Source of the DNA: a virus
Length of the DNA stretch: 24,553 nt
IMG/VR virus record: IMGVR_UViG_3300045119_000662
Span: 1 to 24,553 of that record
Strand: one strand, 5' to 3'
Under the pieces are notes generated by a model that made no database searches, had not been told where the DNA came from, and worked only from the letters and a program-made list of their open reading frames with translations. The position numbers and the translations under genes were made by a program. The first letter of the stretch is position 1. Each line of letters starts with the position of its first letter. Positions 2,937 to 20,476 of this stretch are shown here, piece after piece.

Positions 2937-3413
2937 ATGGCTCAGGCGGCGGGCGTGACGATCGGGCATCCTTGCACAGCGTGCGGGGCCACCATGGTGG
3001 CGTGCGACGCCACCATCCGGACCGAGGGGCACGGTTGCTGTCCGGAGTGCTTCGACACCGACACCCACGGGCTGCTCGACAAGTTCAAGGTCATCGACGT
3101 GGCCGTGCAGGAGCAGCAGATCCAGAACCTCAACCGGCTGGCCGCTCAGACCGTCATCGGCTTCTCGGAGCACGCCAAGACCATCCGGCGCCTGCTGGCC
3201 GACGTCGACCGCCTGACCCGTGAGAACGCCGAGATGCGGGGCCGGCTGGACCGGGCCGAGCCCGGCGAGAAGCAGCGCCTGCTGCACGAGGTGATGGACA
3301 CGGCCCGCGCCGCCGTGCGGAACCTGCCCGAGCGCATCACCGAGGTCGAGCAGTGCCTGGCCGCCATCGAGGAACGTTTGAAGATCCGCCGGGTCCCCAA
3401 GAGCCGGCGTTAG
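2937..3413 (+). CDS. Zinc-ribbon plus coiled-coil protein
   Basis: The product is 158 residues. The N-terminal 40 residues hold CTAC and CPEC with a nearby extra Cys, a plausible four-Cys zinc ribbon. Residues 45-150 are Leu/Arg/Glu-rich with heptad-like spacing (TIRRLLADVDRLTREN and so on), so a long coiled coil and oligomerisation are likely. There is no signal peptide. The start is fixed by TATGAT six bases upstream. The stop shares bases with the stop of the convergent minus-strand gene at 3410, leaving no room for a separate terminator. The function is unknown. Confidence 0.75.
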   Translation: MAQAAGVTIGHPCTACGATMVACDATIRTEGHGCCPECFDTDTHGLLDKFKVIDVAVQEQQIQNLNRLAAQTVIGFSEHAKTIRRLLADVDRLTRENAEMRGRLDRAEPGEKQRLLHEVMDTARAAVRNLPERITEVEQCLAAIEERLKIRRVPKSRR

Positions 3414-4627
3414 GGGGCGACGTAGCCCGGAGCGGGCTCGGGCCCGTTGGGCGGGTTGACGGCCACCCGGTCCCAGTGGAAGCGCACGGCTTGGTTGGCG
3501 GAGGGCTTGTAGACCCACGACGACAGGTACACGTAGACGTTGCCGTTGACGATGGCGTCGGGCAGGAGATGCTGGCCTGGTAGTGCGTCGTGCTCCATGA
3601 AGCGCTGGCCGTTGACGTAGAGGGTGATCGAGTCCTGCGTCAGTTCCCAGCGGAAGCGGTCCCGGCAGTTGGTGTCGGGGTCGTCACCGTTGCAGGTGCG
3701 CTCGGCGCCAGGGGCCGCCCATTCGCCGCCGCCCCACGTCGTGGCGACGTCGGGCTGGCCGCACTGGGCGCCGGCCGAGCCGGACTGGAACCAGGACAGT
3801 TCCCATGTCCGCCCGCACGGGAAGCCGCGCTGGGTCGTGTCGTAGAGCGCCTCGACCGGCCGGGTCCCCTGGAGCCGGATGCCCAGGGCGTCGTAGCCGC
3901 CGAACTGGCCGTAGCCGTAGAGGTCGTCACCGATCGACTTGCCGGGCGTCGGCCCGTACGGGGTCGATGCGGCCGGGCTGGAGGCCGTCGAGACGTCGAT
4001 CTCGGGCCACTCGTTCTCCGTGGAGTCGGCGTTGCCGCCGTAGTCCAGGATGTTGGCGGCGACGTCGGTTTCGATCACCAGCTTGCCGTTGGAGAACTTG
4101 AAAGATCGATCGGGGCGCATCTGGGCGCCGCCCACCTCGCCCGGTGCGTAGATGTCGACCATCCAGTGGTTGTTGTGGCGGAAGAAGCCGGTCTTACCGG
4201 GAGCGTCGATCGAGGAGTTGTTGAACATCACGTAGCCGGTGCCCATGTCGGCCATCGAGGCGCCGTGGTTGAAGTCGTCGACCCAACTGTTGGCACCGTT
4301 GACGAACGTCGCCGGCACGCCTGCGAGTAGTGAGTCGCAGAGCATCGGCAGAGCCGGGGGCAGAGCGCCGAGCGGCGTGACGTCAGGGACGTCGGGGCAC
4401 GGGTGGTGCATCGCCATCCCGCCCATCGGCATCGTGGTCGTGGTGCTCCCCTCCGTCGTCGCCGTGGTCGTCGTGGGGGCGGTGGTCGTCGTGGTCGTGG
4501 TCGGGCAATGCCTCGACCGCGGCGTGCAGCGGCTGGGGGCTGCCGAGGCGGCCGGCATGGTCATCGACAGGACGCCCGCAGCGAGCAGGGCGGCAGCGGC
4601 ACCGAGTGTCACGTGTCGTGTACGCAT
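3410..4627 (-). CDS. Secreted GH16/LamG-like jelly-roll protein
   Basis: The product is 405 residues and probably acts outside the host cell. Residues 1-30 are a Sec signal peptide (Arg-rich start, Ala/Leu core, ASA cleavage site). A Thr-rich linker follows (about 43-66), then a large beta-rich domain (about 100-395). EWPEIDVST (206-214) resembles the GH16 motif ExDxxE, but the final acid/base Glu is Ser/Thr. WELTQDSITLYVNGQRF (327-343) resembles a concanavalin-like strand pair. At least six Cys in the mature domain suggest disulfides. It may bind rather than cut glycans. TAGGCC lies six bases before the ATG. Fold is inferred from motifs; the exact family is uncertain. Confidence 0.7.
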   Translation of the reverse strand: MRTRHVTLGAAAALLAAGVLSMTMPAASAAPSRCTPRSRHCPTTTTTTTAPTTTTATTEGSTTTTMPMGGMAMHHPCPDVPDVTPLGALPPALPMLCDSLLAGVPATFVNGANSWVDDFNHGASMADMGTGYVMFNNSSIDAPGKTGFFRHNNHWMVDIYAPGEVGGAQMRPDRSFKFSNGKLVIETDVAANILDYGGNADSTENEWPEIDVSTASSPAASTPYGPTPGKSIGDDLYGYGQFGGYDALGIRLQGTRPVEALYDTTQRGFPCGRTWELSWFQSGSAGAQCGQPDVATTWGGGEWAAPGAERTCNGDDPDTNCRDRFRWELTQDSITLYVNGQRFMEHDALPGQHLLPDAIVNGNVYVYLSSWVYKPSANQAVRFHWDRVAVNPPNGPEPAPGYVAP

Positions 4628-4633
4628 CGCCCT

Positions 4634-4639
4634 GGCCTA
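4634..4639 (-). promoter_or_regulatory. Possible -10 box TAGGCC for the secreted protein gene
   Basis: On the minus strand TAGGCC lies exactly six bases before the ATG at 4627. It departs from TANNNT at the last base. Position, not sequence, is the main support. Confidence 0.35.
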
Positions 4640-4662
4640 GCACGTTACGGATGCGTGACGGG

Positions 4663-4678
4663 CCATAGCCGACTTAGA
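4663..4678. repeat. Degenerate copy of the CCATAG-N4-CTATGG site
   Basis: The left arm CCATAG is perfect and is followed by a four-base spacer, but the right arm (CTTAGA) is poorly conserved. It sits between the divergent genes at 4627 and 4687 and overlaps the -10 box of the latter. It is counted only because stronger copies occur elsewhere. Confidence 0.25.
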
Positions 4679-4680
4679 AT
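4675..4680 (+). promoter_or_regulatory. -10 box TAGAAT, leaderless start for gene at 4687
   Basis: TAGAAT ends six bases before the ATG at 4687. There is no Shine-Dalgarno sequence. Same geometry as the other first genes. Confidence 0.6.
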
Positions 4681-4686
4681 GCGTCG

Positions 4687-4911
4687 ATGGATCACGCCCG
4701 CCGCTTCGAACTTCATCGGGATGAGGACGTCACTGGTGTCTCCGGCACCGGAGTAGTGGCCGAGGGCGTGATCTTCCGAGACGGCGTGGGCTGTCTGCGC
4801 TGGCTGACCGAGTGGCCCTCCAGCGTCGTGCACTACGACCGCGGCCTGGAGTCGATCGAGACGATCCACGGCCACGGCGGCAAGACCCGGATCGTGTGGA
4901 TCGATGAGTGA
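4687..4911 (+). CDS. Conserved-type actinophage small protein
   Basis: The product is 74 residues. Blocks such as TGVSGTGVVAEGVIFRDG and ETIHGHGG match my memory of a small protein widespread in actinophages whose role is unknown. Predicted structure is mainly beta with no Cys pair, signal or membrane segment. The start is set by TAGAAT six bases upstream. It opens a three-gene forward operon, overlapping the next gene by eight bases, and is divergent from the secreted GH16-like gene. Confidence 0.8.
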   Translation: MDHARRFELHRDEDVTGVSGTGVVAEGVIFRDGVGCLRWLTEWPSSVVHYDRGLESIETIHGHGGKTRIVWIDE

Positions 4912-5119
4912 CTACGCCGAGGCCTTGCAGACCTTCCTCGACCTGTACGCCAACCAGACGCCGCGCCAGGCCGAGTTGGTGATCCCCGGCTGGGCCCTGC
5001 GCCGACTCAACGCCCTGGACGAGCACGAGCGGTTGAAGATCATGAACGAGATCGACCACATCGCCGCCAGCCACGGCCTCTTGACACCCACCAAGATCAT
5101 CGTGGTCCCCAATGGCTGA
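4904..5119 (+). CDS. Small helical hypothetical protein
   Basis: The product is 71 residues, not recognised. It looks helical, with a charged middle (LDEHERLKIMNEIDHIAAS) and a hydrophobic C-terminus (KIIVVP). There are no Cys residues, unlike its neighbours. The ATG overlaps the upstream stop, and the 3' end overlaps the next gene by eight bases. The overlaps and consistent codon use support it as the middle gene of the operon. Confidence 0.7.
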   Translation: MSDYAEALQTFLDLYANQTPRQAELVIPGWALRRLNALDEHERLKIMNEIDHIAASHGLLTPTKIIVVPNG

Positions 5120-5381
5120 CCACACAGACTTCGACGTCGACAGCGTCTGTCCGGTGTGTCGCGCCGTGCACAACGGGATGGCGAACTTCACCGACGACCG
5201 ACACCCCGCTGACGGAGCCGTCAACTTGTGCATCTACTGCGGCGGGATATCTATCTATGACGGCAGCGTCCCTACAAAGTTGCGCTTCCCGACCGACCAT
5301 GAGCTACGTTCCATCGAGGCCGATGAGGACATCATCGCCCTGCGGTGGGCTTACAAGCAGTTGGGGCCGCCGCGTCGTTAA
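5112..5381 (+). CDS. Small two-knuckle zinc-ribbon protein
   Basis: The product is 89 residues. CPVC (about residue 13) and CIYC (about residue 40) give the two CxxC knuckles of a zinc ribbon. The C-terminal half is helical, ending in Arg. It may bind nucleic acid or protein; no catalytic motif is visible. The ATG overlaps the previous gene. The TAA at the end is interleaved with the stop of the convergent Pro-rich lipoprotein gene (four bases shared), so neither gene has its own intergenic terminator. Confidence 0.75.
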   Translation: MADHTDFDVDSVCPVCRAVHNGMANFTDDRHPADGAVNLCIYCGGISIYDGSVPTKLRFPTDHELRSIEADEDIIALRWAYKQLGPPRR

Positions 5382-5926
5382 TCGGGCTGTTTCGGCGTAG
5401 CGGGAGTTGCGGGTGGTTTGGGCTTCTTGGGAGTGGGCGGTGTGGGCTCTGGCGCGCCTCGTGGTGGCGGTGCTGGGGTGGCTGGCGTGGCCGGAGGAAC
5501 AGGTGGAGCAGGGGCGGGAGGCGCTGCGGGCACCGTCACGGGCGGTTGCGCCACAGGAGGTGCCGGCGGCTCTGTCACAGCCGGAGGCGGCGGTGCCGGC
5601 GCTGAGGTCGTCACCGCCGCCTCCGTAGCTGGTGGCGGCACGGGGTGCGAAGCAGCCCGAGGCCGCCGCGTCGGCGCAGCCGTGGCGGGCGGTGGCGCCG
5701 TTGCGTAGATGATGACAGTTGGCGGCGTCGAGCGCCAGTCGGGAGTTGGCGGCGGCGTCACGATCGAGGCCTCGTTGGCGAGCGTGCCGAGGGTCGCCGT
5801 GGCCGTCGGTGGTGACGGCTGCACCCCGCCGTTGTGGGTCGGGATCGGCGTGAGCACGTTGTGCCCCCCGCTGCTACATCCTGCTACTAGCAACACTGTC
5901 ACAACGATCGACCCCGCCCGCCTCAT
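5378..5926 (-). CDS. Pro/Ala/Thr-rich lipoprotein
   Basis: The product is 182 residues. Its signal peptide MRRAGSIVVTVLLVAGC has a clear lipobox (VAG-Cys17), so export and lipid anchoring in the host membrane are expected. The mature part is low complexity: Pro, Ala, Thr and Val, with runs such as PPAPPVAQPP and a Lys/Pro tail. It resembles an extended wall-spanning stalk and no folded domain is visible. The ATG is fixed by TAGGGT six bases upstream on this strand. It is a monocistronic gene facing an operon. It may be a surface stalk or an exclusion factor, but the function is unknown. Confidence 0.7.
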   Translation of the reverse strand: MRRAGSIVVTVLLVAGCSSGGHNVLTPIPTHNGGVQPSPPTATATLGTLANEASIVTPPPTPDWRSTPPTVIIYATAPPPATAAPTRRPRAASHPVPPPATEAAVTTSAPAPPPPAVTEPPAPPVAQPPVTVPAAPPAPAPPVPPATPATPAPPPRGAPEPTPPTPKKPKPPATPATPKQPD

Positions 5927-5932
5927 GCCGGC

Positions 5933-5938
5933 ACCCTA
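5933..5938 (-). promoter_or_regulatory. -10 box TAGGGT, leaderless start for the Pro-rich lipoprotein
   Basis: On the minus strand TAGGGT ends six bases before the ATG at 5926, with no Shine-Dalgarno sequence between. Confidence 0.55.
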
Positions 5939-5985
5939 CACGGGTGCATACCCGGTAGGGGTATCTCTGAAGGCAGGAGGTACGG

Positions 5986-6024
5986 ATGAGGTACGCAGGT
6001 GTACGAGCCCTGAACGATTACTGA
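5986..6024 (+). CDS. Possible 12-residue leader peptide
   Basis: The frame MRYAGVRALNDY starts five bases after a perfect AGGAGG (5975-5980), one of the best ribosome-binding sites in the window. Its stop is followed within seven bases by another ATG. Such a peptide upstream of palindromes and a hairpin could be a regulatory leader. It may equally be chance; the length alone proves nothing. Confidence 0.3.
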   Translation: MRYAGVRALNDY

Positions 6025-6079
6025 CAGGAGCATGAAAGGAGACTTACGAAGCCTGATAGGGATCACCCCGATCGCCGAT

Positions 6080-6095
6080 CCATAGCCAACTATGG
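6080..6095. promoter_or_regulatory. Palindrome CCATAG-CCAA-CTATGG
   Basis: Perfect 6-bp arms around a four-base spacer. The same arms and spacer length recur at 20494-20509 and, with 5-bp arms, at 12871-12885 and 15605-15618. It is likely a protein-binding site (operator or activator), here about 100 bases before the LPHTG protein gene. Confidence 0.5.
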
Positions 6096-6103
6096 AAGAA
6101 ACC

Positions 6104-6133
6104 CCTGGTCAGAGCCCTCCCTGGGCTACCAGG
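6104..6133 (+). other. Bulged hairpin in leader of the LPHTG gene
   Basis: CCTGGT (6104-6109) pairs with ACCAGG (6128-6133), and inside it AGCCC (6113-6117) pairs with GGGCT (6123-6127). This gives 11 base pairs with a three-base bulge and a five-base loop. There is no T run behind it, so it is not a classic terminator. It may be an RNA regulatory element. Confidence 0.4.
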
Positions 6134-6180
6134 TTCAACGCTCGACCCGGGCCCTTATCGGCCTGTCTAAGAAGTTTGTC

Positions 6181-6186
6181 TAGTGT
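6181..6186 (+). promoter_or_regulatory. -10 box TAGTGT, leaderless start for gene at 6193
   Basis: TAGTGT ends six bases before the ATG at 6193. No Shine-Dalgarno sequence is present. The identical hexamer lies before the methyltransferase gene. Confidence 0.6.
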
Positions 6187-6192
6187 TCGCCC

Positions 6193-7548
6193 ATGCGCCG
6201 TTCCCTTGCAGTCCTGTTTCTCCTCCTCCTGACTGCGTGCGGAGCCACGGTTGCGGCCGAGGGGCACGGTGGGCCGACCACGACCTACAAGCCCCACGAG
6301 ACGACGACGACCACCTACAAGCCTCACGAGACGACGACCACCTACCCCCAGCACGTCACCACGACGACCAAGCCGCCTCACGAGACGACGACGACGTACC
6401 CGCACCAGACGACGACCACCAAGCCGGCGCACGAGACGACGACCACGTCTCCGGGGCCCACCACGACGAAGCCTCCGCACGAGACGACGACCACGGCGGC
6501 AGCCACCACCACGACGAGTCACGCCACGACGACCACCACGGGCGGTGGCGGCGGCACGACCACGACCGCGCCGCCGAAGCCGAGCCTGTTTGCCGTGCAG
6601 TCCAGCGTCATCTGCGCCGACGGGGCCCCGGTCATCCAGATCACCTTCGGCAACCGGCCTGATCTCGACGGTCAGACCGGCGAGCTACAGATCAAGCTGG
6701 CGACCAGCGGGCGGATCATCGACAACCAGTTGCTGACCTTCCAGTCCGGCCAGACCGTCACCATCCCGTACCCCGACACCAACCAGGCGGTGACGCTGAC
6801 TTACATGCTCAACGGTGAGCAGGTCGTCAACACGGTGGGCCCGCCGCCCACCAACTGCGCCGTGACCACCACGACAGGAGTGCCGCCATCGACGACCATC
6901 TTGCTGCCGTCTACGACGACGAGTTCAACGACCTCATCGACAGCGCCGTCGACTACTACAACGACCTCGCCCGGGCCTACAACGACGCTGCCCGAGACGT
7001 TCCAGTTCGCTGGAGCGGCGACCGTCTGCATCGCTGAGGTCCCGACGATCGAGATCGTCTTCCAGAACTTGTTCCCGCAGTTGGCGGGACGCACCGGCAC
7101 GCTGACGATGAGCGACATCAACGGCAACGTGGTGTCCGTCCAGCCGCTCGTGTATCAGCCCGGCGCCACGGTGCACATCCTCTACCCCGGCACCAGGGTC
7201 AACCCGGACGGCTCGATCGCGGATGTCCCGGGCTGGAATCTCAACGCTGACGGCTTCTGGGTGCGGGACCCCAGCGACGCCTTCTTGCGTGACGGCATCC
7301 ACCTCCACTACGAGGTCAACCCCAGCGCTGACGCCTTCGTGACCTACCCGCCGGAGTCGAGCGGTTGCGCCAACCCGACCGGTCCGTTCCCTCCGGGCGC
7401 TACGACCACCACGGTGCCTGGTGCACCCACGCCCACCGGATCGCTGCCCCACACCGGAGCCAACGAGAACTGGACGGCGGGGATGGCCGCTCTGGTCCTG
7501 GCGGCCGGCTCGTCGCTGCTCCTCATCGCCCGGCGGCGTCGCTCCTGA
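6193..7548 (+). CDS. Surface protein with lipobox and LPHTG sorting signal
   Basis: The product is 451 residues. Its signal peptide has a lipobox (LTA-Cys16). A Thr-rich stalk (about 30-130) contains roughly six copies of a P-x-H-E-T-T-T-T type unit. Two related beta domains follow (about 133-225 and 270-395), each starting near a VICADG or VCIAEV segment and carrying a Cys at each end. The C-terminus is a textbook sortase signal: LPHTG (418-422), a hydrophobic helix and RRRRS. Sortase would join the cut Thr to the cell wall while the lipobox would anchor the N-terminus in the membrane. Having both is unusual. It is likely displayed on the infected or lysogenised host; the ligand is unknown. 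Monocistronic and leaderless, it ends at a strong hairpin. Confidence 0.8.
   Translation: MRRSLAVLFLLLLTACGATVAAEGHGGPTTTYKPHETTTTTYKPHETTTTYPQHVTTTTKPPHETTTTYPHQTTTTKPAHETTTTSPGPTTTKPPHETTTTAAATTTTSHATTTTTGGGGGTTTTAPPKPSLFAVQSSVICADGAPVIQITFGNRPDLDGQTGELQIKLATSGRIIDNQLLTFQSGQTVTIPYPDTNQAVTLTYMLNGEQVVNTVGPPPTNCAVTTTTGVPPSTTILLPSTTTSSTTSSTAPSTTTTTSPGPTTTLPETFQFAGAATVCIAEVPTIEIVFQNLFPQLAGRTGTLTMSDINGNVVSVQPLVYQPGATVHILYPGTRVNPDGSIADVPGWNLNADGFWVRDPSDAFLRDGIHLHYEVNPSADAFVTYPPESSGCANPTGPFPPGATTTTVPGAPTPTGSLPHTGANENWTAGMAALVLAAGSSLLLIARRRRS
6282..6545 (+). repeat. Imperfect Thr-rich coding repeats
   Basis: About six imperfect copies of a unit encoding P-H-E-T-T-T-T with variable neighbours (alternating ACG and ACC codons) lie in the stalk of the LPHTG protein. 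They are protein-coding low-complexity repeats, prone to length change by slippage or recombination. Confidence 0.7.
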
Positions 7549-7555
7549 ACGCAAA

Positions 7556-7581
7556 GAGCCGGGGCCCGTCGGCCCCGGCTC
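7556..7581. terminator. Hairpin terminator between convergent genes
   Basis: GAGCCGGGGCC (7556-7566) and GGCCCCGGCTC (7571-7581) form a perfect 11-bp stem with a CGTC loop, eight bases after the LPHTG gene stop and 12 before the Rpf gene stop. It can act on both convergent transcripts. A T run is absent, as is common in actinobacterial hairpin terminators. Confidence 0.75.
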
Positions 7582-7593
7582 CTGCGACGCTGT

Positions 7594-8169
7594 CTACTTG
7601 TGAGGTGTCGGGCACTGCCAGGCGCGGGCAGCACCGACGCGGGCGGCGATGCGCTCGGCCACGATGATCTGCTCGGCCCGGCTGGCCTGGCCGGCGGTCG
7701 GCGCGAACTGCGTCCCACCGAACTGGCGCCACGCCGAGTTCATGATCATGAGCCCGCCGCTGAACGTGCCGACCGAGTTGGTGACCTGGCCGTGGCCCCA
7801 CTGGCTACCGCTCTCGCACTGGGCCACGGCGTCCCAGTTGACTCCCGAGGCACCACTACCGCCGCCACCCGAGTTGGCACGAGTCGTGGTGGCCGGTCGG
7901 GCGGGCCTGGCGGGCCGGGCCGGCCTGGTGGTGTTCGTCCTCTGGGCCGTCACGGTGGCGTGCGGAGCCGGGTCGGGCTCGACGACACCGTCGTGGTCCC
8001 AGTCCTGCACGATGAGGGCCTGGACCTCGGGCTGGGCGGCGTAGGCCTCGGCGGCTGCCGGGTCCTGGGCGTGCCAGTCGTTCCACTGCTTGATCTGGTC
8101 CGGCGTGCAGCTTGAAAGTGCTCCGACCGCCGCGACAGCGGTCACCGCCAGGATCATCCTTCGTCGCAT
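7594..8169 (-). CDS. Rpf-domain lipoprotein (transglycosylase-like)
   Basis: The product is 191 residues. Its signal peptide has a lipobox (LSS-Cys21). An Arg/Pro/Thr/Gly-rich linker (about 62-108) leads to a C-terminal resuscitation-promoting-factor domain (about 109-187). VNWDAVAQCESGSQW carries the expected catalytic Glu119, preceded by Cys118 and matched by Cys186 (the family disulfide). FSGGLMI, WRQFGGTQFAP and a final helix follow the family pattern. Rpf proteins cleave peptidoglycan and wake dormant actinobacteria. A lipid-anchored phage copy could remodel the wall or promote growth of the infected cell. AAGGAG five bases before the ATG is a good Shine-Dalgarno sequence, with TAGGGT upstream, so this gene is not leaderless. 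Confidence 0.85.
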   Translation of the reverse strand: MRRRMILAVTAVAAVGALSSCTPDQIKQWNDWHAQDPAAAEAYAAQPEVQALIVQDWDHDGVVEPDPAPHATVTAQRTNTTRPARPARPARPATTTRANSGGGGSGASGVNWDAVAQCESGSQWGHGQVTNSVGTFSGGLMIMNSAWRQFGGTQFAPTAGQASRAEQIIVAERIAARVGAARAWQCPTPHK

Positions 8170-8986: not shown

Positions 8987-9295
8987 ATGACCGCTGAGTT
9001 CACCGACGACCCCGACTGGGACGCCAAGTACATCGTCTTCAAGCGCGAGGACTTCGAGAAGCACGTCTTCGGCGAAGTGGCCTACGCCCAGTGGGAGGTC
9101 AAGGACGCCGTGGTGATCCGGCGCCAGGACAAGTTCGCCTCTCCCTGCCTGGCTACCTACGCAGCGATGATCGGCCTGGTCGCCTCGGAGTCCGAGGACC
9201 CCAAGAAGAAGGCCCAGTTGCTGGCGATCAGCGACTACTTCGAGCGCCAAGCCCAACTGGCCGCCGAAGAGGGCTGGAAGTTGCCCGACCTCTGA
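8987..9295 (+). CDS. Conserved-type small phage protein (VFKREDF motif)
   Basis: The product is 102 residues. The start at 8987 is chosen over an upstream TG-type start at 8951 because GGAGA sits about ten bases before it and the residues upstream look non-coding. Segments KYIVFKREDF, VKDAVVIRRQDKFA and TYAAMIGLVA recall a small actinophage protein of unknown function (memory only). It is a mixed alpha/beta protein with no Cys cluster. Its stop overlaps the next ATG by one base. Confidence 0.75.
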   Translation: MTAEFTDDPDWDAKYIVFKREDFEKHVFGEVAYAQWEVKDAVVIRRQDKFASPCLATYAAMIGLVASESEDPKKKAQLLAISDYFERQAQLAAEEGWKLPDL

Positions 9296-9732
9296 TGACC
9301 CACTCGAATCCTCCGATCGCCGGGCACCACCTGCTCTACGAGGGCCGTTGCTGGCTCGACCCGGCATCGCAGAAGTTCACCGACCCGTACTACGGCGAGC
9401 CCCGCTGGGACGAGGTCACCCGGGACATGGTGATGGGCGGCTGCCAGTGCGGAGCGCTCCCCGACCCCTTCAGCCCCCGCGCCCTGCCCTCGATGACGCG
9501 CATGCGGGTGTGGCACCGCCAGCACAAGGAGGAGCTACGGGCCCAGGGCATCGGCGTGATCGTCACGGACCGCGTCGACCGGGTCAAGCTGATGCACCAG
9601 GTGCTCGACGACGCCGAGACGGCGCTGCGGATGGGCGACATGGAGCGCTTGCACAAGGTCATCTTCGTGTGGTCGCAGCGCCGTGAGTACCTGCTGGCCG
9701 GCGAGGAGACGTGGGAGGACGAGCATGTCTGA
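9295..9732 (+). CDS. Hypothetical protein with CQCG segment
   Basis: The product is 145 residues, not recognised. The N-terminal half is Trp/Pro/Tyr-rich with a GGCQCGA segment. The C-terminal half is helical and charged (DRVKLMHQVLDDAETALRMG and WSQRREYLLAGEE). The ATG overlaps the upstream stop and the 3' end overlaps the following gene by eight bases, so it belongs to the operon opened at 8289 or 8987. Confidence 0.7.
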   Translation: MTHSNPPIAGHHLLYEGRCWLDPASQKFTDPYYGEPRWDEVTRDMVMGGCQCGALPDPFSPRALPSMTRMRVWHRQHKEELRAQGIGVIVTDRVDRVKLMHQVLDDAETALRMGDMERLHKVIFVWSQRREYLLAGEETWEDEHV

Positions 9733-9961: not shown

Positions 9962-10127
9962 CTGCGCCAACTCGGCGATCCACACCGCTCCGGTTCGATA
10001 CTCGCCTTTGACCTTCCGCATAGCTGAGTATCTGTGGAACCACTTCCCGAGCTATCGGAACCGGGTGGAACTGGCCCTGGTCGCTGCCGATCTCGGCTCT
10101 TACGCTGAAGATCCCGGGCGGGCGTAG
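9861..10127 (+). CDS. Hypothetical small protein overlapping tRNA-Gly
   Basis: The product is 88 residues, not recognised. The GTG start has an excellent AGGAGG (9850-9855) five bases upstream, which decides the start despite the overlap with the upstream gene. The His/Asp-rich N-terminus (MSDHDHYTLPDQ) is followed by helices. The TAG stop lies inside the tRNA-Gly gene, ten bases past its first base, so tRNA processing would cut off the end of the message. Confidence 0.7.
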   Translation: MSDHDHYTLPDQIPQGAELHEILWHALRQNFHADCANSAIHTAPVRYSPLTFRIAEYLWNHFPSYRNRVELALVAADLGSYAEDPGRA

Positions 10128-10188
10128 CTCAGTGGTAGAGCCCCACCTTGCCGAGGTGGTGACACGGGTTCGAGTCCCGTCGTCCGCT
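10118..10188 (+). tRNA. tRNA-Gly(GCC)
   Basis: All arms can be drawn. The acceptor GCGGGCG pairs with CGTCCGC (one G-T). The D arm is GCTC/GAGC, the anticodon stem CCACC/GGTGG with loop TTGCCGA (anticodon GCC), and the T arm ACGGG/CCCGT with loop TTCGAGT. CCA is not encoded. The gene overlaps the last ten bases of the upstream CDS. Confidence 0.9.
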
Positions 10189-10191
10189 CTG

Positions 10192-10264
10192 GGGCGTGTA
10201 GCTCAGTCGGAAGAGCGCCAGCACGACACGCTGGAGGCCGAGGGTTCGATTCCCTCCACGCCCA
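10192..10264 (+). tRNA. tRNA-Val(GAC) with unusual anticodon loop
   Basis: The acceptor GGGCGTG pairs perfectly with CACGCCC. The D arm is GCTC/GAGC, the anticodon stem CCAGC/GCTGG and the T arm GAGGG/CCCTC with loop TTCGATT. The loop ACGACAC gives anticodon GAC, but position 33 is C where almost all tRNAs have U. CCA is not encoded. It starts three bases after tRNA-Gly, so the two form one processed transcript. Confidence 0.85.
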
Positions 10265-10296
10265 CGCCGGACGAGTACTTCAACATCCCGCACTGG

Positions 10297-16472: not shown

Positions 16473-18002
16473 ATGAAGCGAACCTGGCGTGAGATCAGCC
16501 ACCCTCGCGAGGGCTTCCACTTCGAGAGCCTGACCCCGGACCGCCAGTCCGCCGCCATCGCCTCGGTGGAGTCGCTGGGCGGCGGCGGCTCCAACGCCGG
16601 CAAGGTGCGCCAGACGATCGCCACCAACCTGACGACGGCCAGCGGCGAGATCCGTGACCTGGAGTCGGCCGGCAAGTCGGTGCCGGCCAAGAAGTACCGC
16701 CAGTTGGCCGTGCTCAAGAAGGGCCACGAGGAGGCCCAGTCGCTGCCGGCCACCGGCATGGAGGCCTCGGTCAAGACCATCAAGGACACGGCGATGATGC
16801 CGGTCAAGGCGGTCCGGGCCCACGCCAAGGAGACGGGCGAGATGCTCGGCGTCTCGGCCGGCGAGTTCTACCCCGAGCGCTCCCGCATCGGTGAGGCCAT
16901 CGGGTCCAAGGTGTTCGGCAAGGGCAGCGAGGAGAGCTACCGCCTGCAGGTCGCCTCACCCACGCTGTCGGCGCGCATGGCGCCCCAGAAGGAGGTGGCG
17001 GCGGCCGCCGGCATGGCGAGCGTGATCAAGGGCGGCGGCGAGATCGGCATCGACATCGGCCACACCGCAGCCCGCTACCTCAGCCACGAGTTCCGCGGTG
17101 CCGGCGGGCGCCCGCCGGTCGAGGCCGGCAGCTACAGCTTCGACGAGATCGCCCGTTCGCACCCCCACGTCGCCTCGATGCTGCTGCAGCACGGCGCCAA
17201 CGCTTCCGGGCTCGTCGTGCCGACCGGCAAGCAGGAGCAGACCGAAGCCAAGAAGGCCCAGGTGCAGGCGCTGTCGGGTCAGAGCGGGGCCCGGGTGCAC
17301 ATCCCGGACCTCCTGGAAGCCCCGACGGCGGCGTTCGTATCCGGCTATGGCATCACCGGCCATCCCAAGGGCGCCCGGGCGCTGGCCCGCTTCCACTCCG
17401 ACCCCGAGAGCTTCGGCGGCTTCGACTTCCACAAGATCCCCTCGTACACGTGGAACATCAACAACGCCCAGAGCATCTCGAAGGGCACGCACCACTTCCT
17501 GGGCGCCCTCGCCCACGGTGACCGCTGGTTCGCTGCCCACCCCGACGCCGAGGACCACATCCGTCGCGCTTCCGCCCATCCGGCGTGGAACGACCCCACC
17601 TCCACCATCGACGTGTGGTCGGGCCGGGCCGCTTCCGGGCTCCCCTACCACGTCGCCCGTTCCCTCGGTGAGGTCACCAACCCCGAGGACATCATGGGCT
17701 TTGCCGGAGCCGGCAAGCACCGCTTCTCCCGCCAGCCCGGTGGGCTGGGCAAGGCGTCCGACCTCGGGTACCTCTACGGCGAGGAGGCGCATCGGCGTGC
17801 CGGCGCTGCCATGTCGGTGCGCCTCCCCGGCGGCGGCCGGGTCGCCATGCCGGGCCACATCGCCCAGTCGCTGTCGTGGTACGGCGTCCAGGCCCAGGAG
17901 TACCCCGGAAAGATCAAGTCCGGCGAGAAGACCTTGGTCCCCAAGAACGCCCGTGACCCACGCGGTCTGAACCCGCTCCGCATGCCCATGACCTGGTCAT
18001 AA
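16473..18002 (+). CDS. Large conserved-type phage protein of unknown function
   Basis: The product is 509 residues. The first 150 residues are helical and basic with GGGGS-like turns. The C-terminal half (about 270-490) is a folded unit with blocks GARALARFHSDPES, FDFHKIPSYTWNINN, IDVWSGRAASGLP and YLYGEEAHRRAG, ending with SLSWYGVQAQEYPGK. I recall this block pattern from uncharacterised actinophage proteins encoded near terminase and portal. There are several conserved His and Trp but no assignable catalytic motif. A structural, ejected or toxin-like role is possible. It ends just before the next leaderless promoter. Confidence 0.7.
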   Translation: MKRTWREISHPREGFHFESLTPDRQSAAIASVESLGGGGSNAGKVRQTIATNLTTASGEIRDLESAGKSVPAKKYRQLAVLKKGHEEAQSLPATGMEASVKTIKDTAMMPVKAVRAHAKETGEMLGVSAGEFYPERSRIGEAIGSKVFGKGSEESYRLQVASPTLSARMAPQKEVAAAAGMASVIKGGGEIGIDIGHTAARYLSHEFRGAGGRPPVEAGSYSFDEIARSHPHVASMLLQHGANASGLVVPTGKQEQTEAKKAQVQALSGQSGARVHIPDLLEAPTAAFVSGYGITGHPKGARALARFHSDPESFGGFDFHKIPSYTWNINNAQSISKGTHHFLGALAHGDRWFAAHPDAEDHIRRASAHPAWNDPTSTIDVWSGRAASGLPYHVARSLGEVTNPEDIMGFAGAGKHRFSRQPGGLGKASDLGYLYGEEAHRRAGAAMSVRLPGGGRVAMPGHIAQSLSWYGVQAQEYPGKIKSGEKTLVPKNARDPRGLNPLRMPMTWS

Positions 18003-18017
18003 CAAGATGCGACCGCT

Positions 18018-18028
18018 AGTATCATACT
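18018..18028. promoter_or_regulatory. Palindromic leaderless promoter (AGTAT-C-ATACT)
   Basis: An 11-base perfect palindrome matching the core of the one at 2922-2934. TAGTAT (17-22 of this stretch, 18017-18022) ends six bases before the GTG at 18029. Only one gene is served here. Confidence 0.6.
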
Positions 18029-18370
18029 GTGAAGCAGATGCCCTTCTTCGACAGGGTCGAGATCGATGTGCCCGGGCGCGTGGATGCGCTCGTGGCTGCT
18101 CTCTCGGAGGCGCAGGTCGCAGAACTGGAGCGTCTGGGCGGCGTCCGCAAGGCGTACTACCGGGACATGAAGCAGGTGCTGACCGACGAGTTCTCCAGCA
18201 TCCTGGCGGACGACGACGTGGACCAGCAGACGGTCATCGACCTGACGCTCATGGCGACCAACCTGATGCTGCGGGCGATCACCAAGTTCTCGCTGGCGAC
18301 GGCCGAGATCGCCGCCTTCGGGGAGCCGCAGGGCCTGCTCTTCCCGGAGAGCAGCCACCGCGCCGACTGA
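18029..18370 (+). CDS. Helical hypothetical protein
   Basis: The product is 113 residues, almost wholly helical and acidic (VDALVAALSEAQVAELERLG, then DMKQVLTDEFSSILADDDVD), with hydrophobic helices near the end (LTLMATNLMLRAITKF). There is no Cys, signal or known motif. The GTG is fixed by the palindromic leaderless promoter. It is a separate unit before the ParB-like gene and portal. It could be a small packaging or assembly factor, but nothing proves this. Confidence 0.7.
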   Translation: MKQMPFFDRVEIDVPGRVDALVAALSEAQVAELERLGGVRKAYYRDMKQVLTDEFSSILADDDVDQQTVIDLTLMATNLMLRAITKFSLATAEIAAFGEPQGLLFPESSHRAD

Positions 18371-18383
18371 CGTTGGGGCGGCC

Positions 18384-18818
18384 GTGATGGCCGCCTCCGA
18401 TCATCTGCACCCCGAGCAGATGAAGCTGTTCATGACGGGCACCGAGTTGAAGGGCGCCATCACGGGCTCGATCGATCGCGCTCCGATGCAGTCGATGGAC
18501 GACATGTGGAAGCGCAAGACCCGCGAGTCCAAGAGCGACGCCTACCACGGCGGCGGCACCCACGCCAGCCTCAAGGCCCAGGGCTGGGTCGGCCCGGGGC
18601 CGGGGATCTACCACCGTCGTGAGTACGGGCCCATCCCCGAGTTCGACAAGGAGCACCTCCAGGTGGACGACGCTCACCACCGCATCGCCGCGGCCGCCGA
18701 CATCGAGGCGAAGTCGAAGGGCAAGCGCAACATCTGGATCCCGACGACCGACCGCTCCGAGGCTGACGTGCAGACCCGCTCTCAGAAGTTCAAGCGGTTC
18801 GACCAGGACGCGATGTAA
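18384..18818 (+). CDS. ParB-like motif protein upstream of the portal
   Basis: The product is 144 residues. Near residue 95 the segment VDDAHHRIAAAADIE, followed by NIWIPT, resembles the nucleotide-binding DGxHRxxAA loop of ParB-like/Srx-fold domains, with Asp in place of Gly. The rest is charged and helical. GTG 18384 or ATG 18387 may be the start. The stop overlaps the portal ATG by one base, so the two are translated together. ParB-like folds occur near portals in several phages. Nuclease or CTPase activity is unproven. Confidence 0.6.
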   Translation: MMAASDHLHPEQMKLFMTGTELKGAITGSIDRAPMQSMDDMWKRKTRESKSDAYHGGGTHASLKAQGWVGPGPGIYHRREYGPIPEFDKEHLQVDDAHHRIAAAADIEAKSKGKRNIWIPTTDRSEADVQTRSQKFKRFDQDAM

Positions 18819-20476
18819 TGGGCATAGCGTTCTATCCCCCGAGCTATCGAGCGGCGGCGTCTGACCTCACCATCGCCATCAGCCCGCTCGGCCTGGTTGA
18901 ACTCGCCGACGAAGAGTTTGAAGTTCACGGCCCCCGCCTGAACCGCTACGCCAACAACTGGGCGTGGTTCCTGGGCCACCACTGGGCCTACCGGCGGGAG
19001 ATCGGGGAACCGCAACTCGTCTTCAACTGGGTCCGGGCGTTCAGCGACTTCCTGGTCAACTTCTCATTCGGGCGCGGCATCTACTTCGGCAGCCCTGAGG
19101 CGACCCAGGCCATCACCCCCTACCTCCTCAAGGAGGTGTGGGAGGTCCACAACGACAAGCACGCCGTGATGAACGAGATCGGGCAGCAGGGCTCCGTCTC
19201 GGGCGACGTGTTCGCCAAGGTCGCCTACGAGCCGCCCTACGTAGACGTCGCCGGCCTGCCCCACGAAGGTCGCATCCGCATCCTGCCCCTCAACCCTGCC
19301 TTCTGCTTCCCCGAGTGGCATCCGCACGACCGCACCCGGATGATCCGCTTCAAGCTTCGTTACAAGTTCTGGGGCACGGCCGTCGATGGCACCCGGCAGG
19401 TGATGACGTACACGGAACTCATCACCGACGACGTCATCGAGGAGTACATCAACGACGAGTTGATCGACCAGCGGCCCAACCAGATGGGGGAGATCCCCAT
19501 CGCCTACACGCAGAACTACGCCGTCTCGTCCTCACCGTGGGGCCTCTCCGACATCCAGGAGATCATCCCGCTGAATCGGGAGTACAACGAGAAGGCCACT
19601 GAAATATCCGACATCATAAACTACCACGTTGCCCCAGTCACCATCATCACGGGGGCGAAAGCAAGCAACCTGGAGAAGGGCCCCCGCAAGATCTGGGCCA
19701 TCGGCTCCGACAAGGCCAAGGTGTCGAACCTGGAGTTGGAGACGAACTTCACGGGCCCGCTGGGCTACATGGAGTTGCTCAAGCAGGCGATGCACGAGAT
19801 GACGGGTGTGCCAGCGACGGCCCTGGGCACGCTCCAGCCCATCAGCAACACCAGCGGCGTGGCGCTGGCCCTGCAGTACCAGCCGCTCATGCTCAAGCAC
19901 GAGCGCAAGAAGACCCAGTACATCCCCTTCTTCCAACGGGTGAACGCCCTCATCATCAAGACGGCGTTCCTGTTCGCCCCCGAACTCACGATCTACAACC
20001 CGTACCTGTCGAGCATCCAGATCCGGCCCGACCAGATCCCACAGTTGGATCCAAGCGACCCGGTGACGTTCCGGACCACGGTCGAGTGGACCTCCCCGAT
20101 GCCGATGGACACGCTCATCAAGATCAACGAGATTCAGGCGAAGATGGCGATGAACCTGGAGAGCCGGCGCGGCGCCCTGGTCGACCTGGGCGAGCAGTTC
20201 CCGGACCAGAAGATGCGGGAGATCTTCGAAGAGATGATCGAGGACGCCAAGTCGCAGGGCGCCCTCGACCTGATCCGCAGTCAGTTGGCGGCCTTCAACA
20301 TGGCGGCGACGGGCATGACGCCCGACGGGCAGCCGCTCATGGGCCAGGACGCCGAAGGCAACCCGGTGCCGGCGCAGCCGCCGGTCGATCCGAACCTCGC
20401 TCGGGAGGTTCAGCAGTTGGCGTACGGGATCATGCCGCCGCAGATCCTCGACTTCAACTCGGAGGACTCGGGGTGA
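18818..20476 (+). CDS. Portal protein
   Basis: The product is 552 residues, typical for SPP1 gp6-like portals, which form the dodecameric ring at one capsid vertex through which DNA passes. Recognisable blocks are NWVRAFSDFLVNFSFGRG (about 69-86), the middle beta region with ILPLNPAFCFPEW, and the helical stem segment LLKQAMHEMTGVPATALG with SNTSGVALALQYQPL. The C-terminus is acidic and Gln/Pro-rich (the crown). It is coupled to the ParB-like gene. A degenerate CATAG palindrome covers the first codons. The end is followed by the palindrome at 20494. Confidence 0.93.
   Translation: MGIAFYPPSYRAAASDLTIAISPLGLVELADEEFEVHGPRLNRYANNWAWFLGHHWAYRREIGEPQLVFNWVRAFSDFLVNFSFGRGIYFGSPEATQAITPYLLKEVWEVHNDKHAVMNEIGQQGSVSGDVFAKVAYEPPYVDVAGLPHEGRIRILPLNPAFCFPEWHPHDRTRMIRFKLRYKFWGTAVDGTRQVMTYTELITDDVIEEYINDELIDQRPNQMGEIPIAYTQNYAVSSSPWGLSDIQEIIPLNREYNEKATEISDIINYHVAPVTIITGAKASNLEKGPRKIWAIGSDKAKVSNLELETNFTGPLGYMELLKQAMHEMTGVPATALGTLQPISNTSGVALALQYQPLMLKHERKKTQYIPFFQRVNALIIKTAFLFAPELTIYNPYLSSIQIRPDQIPQLDPSDPVTFRTTVEWTSPMPMDTLIKINEIQAKMAMNLESRRGALVDLGEQFPDQKMREIFEEMIEDAKSQGALDLIRSQLAAFNMAATGMTPDGQPLMGQDAEGNPVPAQPPVDPNLAREVQQLAYGIMPPQILDFNSEDSG
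18823..18836. repeat. Degenerate CATAG-N4-CTATC site in the portal start
   Basis: CATAG-CGTT-CTATC differs by one base from the palindrome family and lies in codons 2-7 of the portal gene. It could affect translation or be chance. Confidence 0.25.

Follow-up and report, generated by a model that had tools for sequence, protein, structure and literature searches.

Four phage genes for predicted exported proteins suggest a modular modification of the actinobacterial host envelope

Introduction

Sortase substrates normally need a membrane segment and a charged tail after the sorting motif. Rpf domains encoded by phages, LPxTG proteins and surface lipoproteins all belong to established types. Among the lipoproteins, Ltp of Streptococcus thermophilus phage TP-J34 is moron-like and stops DNA injection (PMC3952083). 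Wall enzymes offer a precedent for exchange of modules, as non-orthologous domain displacement has been described for Rpf and Sps, wherein a common N-terminal part carries unrelated wall enzymes across lineages (PMC1084345). During infection by Rhodococcus phage WC1 four host rpf genes rise (PMC10986025), and a conference report describes Rpf-deficient mycobacteria as less well infected by some phages (PMC12908700); by analogy, both reports would be compatible with Rpf taking part in infection.

Here we analyse IMG/VR virus record IMGVR_UViG_3300045119_000662 over its full 24,553 bases, a stretch that we call the window, which carries large terminase, SPP1-type portal and major capsid genes on its plus strand. 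The original prediction placed at 3410-8169 four exported proteins, each with a promoter of its own, in a moron-like cluster that might remodel the host envelope. We find that this mostly holds, although confirmation is partial.

Results

By terminase, the nearest cultured relatives of the window are the BRock-like Streptomyces phages (112-116 kb genomes), at 46% identity. Related terminases occur in 54 uncultured loci, most of which are closer to the window than the BRock-like phages. Judging from the Rpf domain, the base composition and the relatives, the most likely host is an actinobacterium. With neither an integrase nor a repressor seen within it, the window gives no sign of lysogeny. 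Tandem tRNA-Gly (gcc) and tRNA-Val (gac) genes lie at 10118-10265, and an FkbM-type methyltransferase (PF05050, 58 bits) that could modify surface glycans is encoded at 1046-1801, upstream of the exported cluster.

The features of the cluster are collected in Table 1. Four open reading frames for exported proteins are present as predicted, with a signal sequence in all four: a signal peptidase I type signal in the secreted orphan, and lipoboxes VAGC, LTAC and LSSC in the Pro-rich lipoprotein, the Thr-rich rod and the Rpf lipoprotein, respectively, as called by a heuristic rather than by SignalP. Substitutions relative to homologues are in excess at third codon positions in all four frames, which shows them to be coding. 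Thr/Pro-rich linkers are indeed common to the four proteins, and three of the genes do run on the minus strand against the forward operons; in our hand-made gene list, these are the only minus-strand genes found in the window.

Table 1 Features of the exported-protein cluster, in window coordinates.
Feature	Coordinates	Strand	Basis or remark
Secreted orphan protein, 405 aa	3410..4627	-	ORF, signal, coding pattern, relative L002 (62% identity)
Pro-rich lipoprotein, 182 aa, lipobox VAGC	5378..5926	-	ORF, signal, syntenic L046 homologue, coding pattern
Leaderless promoter-like site TAGGGT-N6	5927..5938	-	directly before ATG of Pro-rich lipoprotein
Leaderless promoter-like site TAGTGT-N6	6181..6192	+	directly before ATG of LPHTG protein (rod)
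Thr-rich rod, 451 aa	6193..7548	+	ORF, signal, profile matches, family of 20 distinct members
Conserved second domain of rod, profile A3	6988..7428	+	profile and all-beta model
Strong hairpin, candidate shared terminator, no T run	7556..7581	.	-31.7 kcal/mol, z -4.65
Rpf lipoprotein, 191 aa	7594..8169	-	ORF, profile match, lipobox LSSC, coding pattern

A sigma-70 promoter scan of the window found none, against 1.0 expected, and sigma-70 promoters were accordingly rejected for the cluster genes. The leaderless signature TANNNT-N6-ATG, by comparison, has six occurrences in the window where 1.2 were expected, a count reached in none of 100 shuffles. The sites, at 102, 2925, 4675, 5938 (minus strand), 6181 and 13233, all lie at predicted gene starts, which suggests that this phage makes general use of leaderless transcription. 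The predicted promoter for each gene can thus be recognised at two of the four, the Pro-rich lipoprotein and the rod; before the orphan and Rpf genes the signature is absent and no promoter was recognised. Each of these two genes stands alone between genes of the opposite strand, so that separate transcription, from promoters of their own, would follow from position and orientation alone. The hairpin sits between the convergent rod and Rpf genes. As regards the promoter and terminator expected of a moron, we therefore see leaderless sites at two of four genes, one shared hairpin, and an argument from orientation for the other two. Variable presence, also expected of a moron, is seen directly, as L046, L003, L006, L010 and L012 differ in the genes that they carry upstream of the terminase. 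With single-gene units, mostly set against the forward operons, and exported products, the layout fits the moron-like description.

The secreted orphan had been predicted to be a GH16/LamG-like protein, and this identity is not supported. The protein comprises a signal peptide, a Thr-rich linker and a domain of about 320 residues that has no match in Pfam, NCBIfam or PHROG, nor among PDB sequences. GH16 was rejected because, besides the lack of a profile match, the catalytic motif (ExDxxE or ExDxE) is missing: the region reads WPEIDVSTAS in the window and WPEITVTTAS in L002, with the second Glu missing in both and the Asp missing in L002. A structure model built from the two-sequence alignment reached a pLDDT of 29.5, too low to be used for the fold. 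L002, the single relative found, comes from an unrelated phage, where its gene immediately follows that of an amidase endolysin; the record of L002 is the only one among 30 related records to carry the domain.

For the Rpf lipoprotein the original prediction was borne out, and the Rpf identity of its predicted domain is beyond doubt (PF06737, 66 bits against a cut-off of 27, E 4.9e-18). The lipobox is followed by an anchor module, a TTRPARPARPAR linker and the Rpf transglycosylase domain, in which the catalytic Glu119, within a CESG motif, is invariant in the alignment. Comparison of muralytic lipoproteins shows that the N-terminal anchor, CTPxQIxxWxxWHxxDPAAAEAFAxxPEV, is conserved and that the payload differs. 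The anchor carries an Rpf payload in the window, L006, L059, L060, L061 and L003, and a payload with an RESGC motif in L046 and L057. On the strength of that motif we assign the second payload as probably lysozyme-like; it has no match in Pfam or among PDB sequences. The reverse swap is seen in L062, wherein an Rpf domain 87% identical to that of the window is placed on an ordinary signal peptide with a PG_binding_1 domain. In L059 and L062, an Rpf gene and a lysozyme-like gene lie side by side.

The third lipoprotein, predicted to combine a lipobox with an LPHTG signal, does so. This Thr-rich rod comprises its lipobox, PHETTTT repeats, two beta domains and a C-terminus of LPHTG, a hydrophobic membrane segment and the basic tail ARRRRS, and thus has all three parts of an LPxTG sortase substrate. 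It exceeds the curated cut-offs of both PF00746 (21.9 against 20 bits) and TIGR01167 (22.6 against 15.9). The second domain gave an all-beta predicted model (pLDDT 82.8), but its PDB matches were no better than E 0.011, and an 'Ig-like' label for it is therefore only an impression. Beyond the sorting signal, the rod family has no Pfam or PHROG match, and there was no match in 50,697 phage records. Identification of a host by scanning a genome collection with the rod was abandoned, as the single match was a large repeat protein and false. The GH16-like domain of the orphan had no match in 347 genomes from the phylum of the MAG that gave this false match, a result of little weight because no positive control matched.

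We then compared gene order among relatives. The Pro-rich lipoprotein, predicted correctly, has a syntenic homologue in L046 (2153-2806), with a common TPDWRxxPPTVxI. The order in L046, the nearest relative, is o4687, o5112, Pro-rich lipoprotein (minus strand), muralytic lipoprotein (minus strand), o8280 and o8503; an LPHTG gene is absent from this stretch. The same frame recurs in L003, there filled by two Rpf genes in tandem and a small exported protein (1176-1505). The L057 counterpart of this protein (9176-9505) belongs to the WGxxGxxG family (NF041742, 55 bits). Between the exported cluster and the terminase lies a small conserved lipoprotein family, SCGDDD...NGVPRAIVNAG, in L003 (5910-6251), L040 (769-1098) and L046 (6132-6464); the L046 member has no family match. 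In G012, the record of L046, the terminase at 17920-19496 appears split between two frames, with a TGA, which may reflect an error of sequencing or assembly.

Among the 30 related records, the rod domain is present in 16 and Rpf in 10. In the 17 records with a related terminase, the rod is found in nine and an Rpf domain in five, one of these domains being part of a 937-aa frame, possibly a tail protein. Rods with a secreted muralytic gene no more than about 5 kb away are seen in the window, G007, G008, G010, G015 and G025 (6 of 20 cases, a raw count taken without a background rate). Most relatives have one or two of the exported families, many of them one member only, and the full combination was found in the window alone among the 30 records. 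The expectation that the genes travel together is thus upheld for pairs of members and not for the set: parts of it recur in changing combinations, and the four-gene set does not. On these sequence comparisons, two of the four members, the muralytic lipoprotein and the Thr-rich rod, are families of a larger phage clade.

The C-termini of the rods take two forms. LPxTG or IPxTG with a hydrophobic tail is found in 8 of the 20 distinct members, with a strongly basic tail in all but L085, a partial exception. The remaining 12 have no membrane tail and therefore lack the full sortase-substrate signal, and 11 of these carry LPxT at position -5, stopping one residue after the Thr (LPPTR, LPPTL, LPATE, LPPTA, LPATA, LPQTR or LPPTG); the twelfth ends VPTE. 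When the last 30 residues were shuffled, LPxT-x ends arose with a mean of 0.027 per trial and a maximum of 2 in any of 20,000 trials, as compared to the 11 observed. Descent of the tail-less rods as one clade was rejected (AU p 0.005), with about five changes on the tree. An N-terminal lipobox is present in 7 of 8 tailed rods and 2 of 12 tail-less ones, representing only 2-4 independent contrasts, and the association of lipobox with membrane tail is suggestive.

The same ending is seen on two unrelated secreted proteins encoded beside rods. One is an Rpf in L074, which ends SLPVTR and whose export rests on a hydrophobic N-terminus not called by the signal heuristic; the other is a repeat protein of about 676 residues in L081, L083 and L087, which ends LPLTC or LPATC. 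Among 9,005 ORF ends from all loci, LPxT is found at -5 in 17 cases, compared with 4 at -4 and 4 at -6. When only proteins with a signal sequence are taken, the numbers are 13 at -5 and zero at the other two positions, in counts that include relatives and are not independent. Each of six near-complete genomes surveyed has either full or tail-less ends, never both.

Neighbouring unrelated secreted proteins with such endings are encoded in L074 (7891-9663 and 9814-10203, ending LPPTA and LPVTR), L083 (9164-11197 and 14181-16211, LPPTR and LPLTC), L081 (3364-5391 and 8117-10156, LPPTR and LPLTC) and L087 (1978-3966 and 4603-6585, LPATC and LPPTL).

A phage-encoded sortase was rejected, as none scored above cut-off in 33 phage records. 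Stop read-through or a frameshift into a hidden membrane tail was likewise rejected, since there is no hydrophobic same-frame continuation and all three stop codons, TAG, TGA and TAA, are in use. In the family of about 676 residues, the ORF of a secreted neighbour begins on the stop, and for other tail-less proteins nothing is found there. In L082 (10441 onward) and L078 (3921 onward), a small ORF with a single membrane segment begins on the stop of a tail-less rod, in another frame.

Discussion

We give about an even chance to the view that the phage carries the four as accessory genes, each transcribed separately, and that the infected actinobacterial host would export their products and anchor them in its envelope. 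This view draws on sequence-level evidence: export signals, lipoboxes, a complete LPxTG signal, the Rpf catalytic Glu, single-gene units, and two families that recur with swapped anchors or payloads. The Rpf lipoprotein, on the outer face of the membrane, would trim peptidoglycan locally. A lipid would anchor the N-terminus of the rod, and host sortase would join its C-terminus to the wall; together with the Rpf and Pro-rich lipoproteins, the rod may change or mask the envelope during infection. As to the benefit, our guess is that the wall is kept in growth, that rival phages are excluded, or that dormant cells are woken. The coordinated remodelling originally proposed for the four proteins is plausible. 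Our reading is of a modular, phage-encoded modification of the host envelope, in which the four genes would be one phage's selection from a pool of modifiers that varies, and not one fixed system. An exported Rpf is also present in the nearest cultured relatives, in favour of this reading; against it, the full set is unique and many relatives have one member.

Other explanations account for parts of the same data. The surface lipoproteins and rod might serve superinfection exclusion, blocking adsorption or DNA entry of other phages, with the muralytic domain secondary. The placement of lipoproteins outside the membrane, the single-gene units set against the operons and the variable content all suit this idea, as does the precedent of Ltp in phage TP-J34 (PMC3952083). 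We nonetheless consider exclusion unlikely, because the proteins show no sequence relationship to known exclusion families, an exclusion protein would not be expected to have an active muralytic domain, and lysogeny is not evident, with neither integrase nor repressor seen in the window. It is still less probable that the muralytic proteins and the orphan are lysis or release aids, loosening the wall or surface polymers late, with the rod a spectator. Unlike endolysins, such enzymes would be kept where they are by lipid and wall anchors, no recognisable lysis cassette lies anywhere near the genes in the window, and leaderless single promoters are not a late operon; these points stand against the ability of Rpf and lysozyme-like domains to cut peptidoglycan and the location of the orphan's sole relative directly after an amidase endolysin.

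Lastly, a tolerant region upstream of the terminase might gather host-derived exported genes by chance, making the neighbourhood meaningless. The uniqueness of the four-gene set, and the one or two families of most relatives, are compatible with such hitchhiking. We rate it the most improbable of these explanations, as rod and muralytic genes lie near each other in six records, anchors have been exchanged repeatedly within families, and the genome-collection scan confirmed no rod homologue, its one match being false.

The tail-less ends invite a further proposal, less likely than not, that this phage group marks secreted proteins with a tail-less tag of LPxT plus one residue. The tag would be carried by at least three unrelated families (the Thr-rich rod, an Rpf and the repeat protein of about 676 residues), with each surveyed phage using one form, and tagged proteins could be attached in trans to host or neighbour walls by host sortase, or could bind or inhibit sortase. 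If functional, such ends would break the rule of a membrane-spanning tail for sortase substrates.

Within the scope of our searches, what is new is the rod family, the lipid anchor on which muralytic domains are exchanged, and the LPxT ends without a tail; no description of them was found in the open-licence literature. The recurrence of modular wall enzymes and wall-attached rods, both exported, among uncultured actinophages of soil makes rebuilding of the host surface a testable idea, and the exported set would tie Rpf, a factor of actinobacterial growth and dormancy, to infection.

Among known systems, the Rpf lipoprotein of the window resembles Rpf factors (PF06737; RpfC and RpfE of Mycobacterium tuberculosis) in its domain, catalytic Glu, CESG motif and predicted export. 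It differs in being phage-encoded, in having its own lipid-anchor module, and in that the domain is swapped for a lysozyme-like one in relatives; it also falls below the cut-off of the NCBIfam RpfC equivalog (49 against 200 bits). Whereas the Rpf/Sps displacement involves DUF348 and Sps, the exchange seen here occurs within one phage group and involves a lipobox module and an RESGC lysozyme-like domain. BRock-like Streptomyces phages also encode an exported Rpf, the Rpf-LysM protein LuckySocke gp182, but this protein combines an ordinary signal peptide with LysM in place of a lipobox anchor, and its gene is about 67 kb away from that of the terminase. The window proteins are like Ltp (PMC3952083) as phage-encoded surface lipoproteins on single-gene units. 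They differ in having an enzyme domain and no lysogeny module seen in the window, and they have no match to the Ltp or host-cell-surface-exposed lipoprotein family in Pfam, PHROG or NCBIfam. The rod shares its motif, hydrophobic segment and basic tail with LPxTG sortase substrates (PF00746, TIGR01167). It departs from them in also having a lipobox, so that it is possibly anchored at both ends, and in belonging to a family in which most members, 12 of 20, have no membrane tail.
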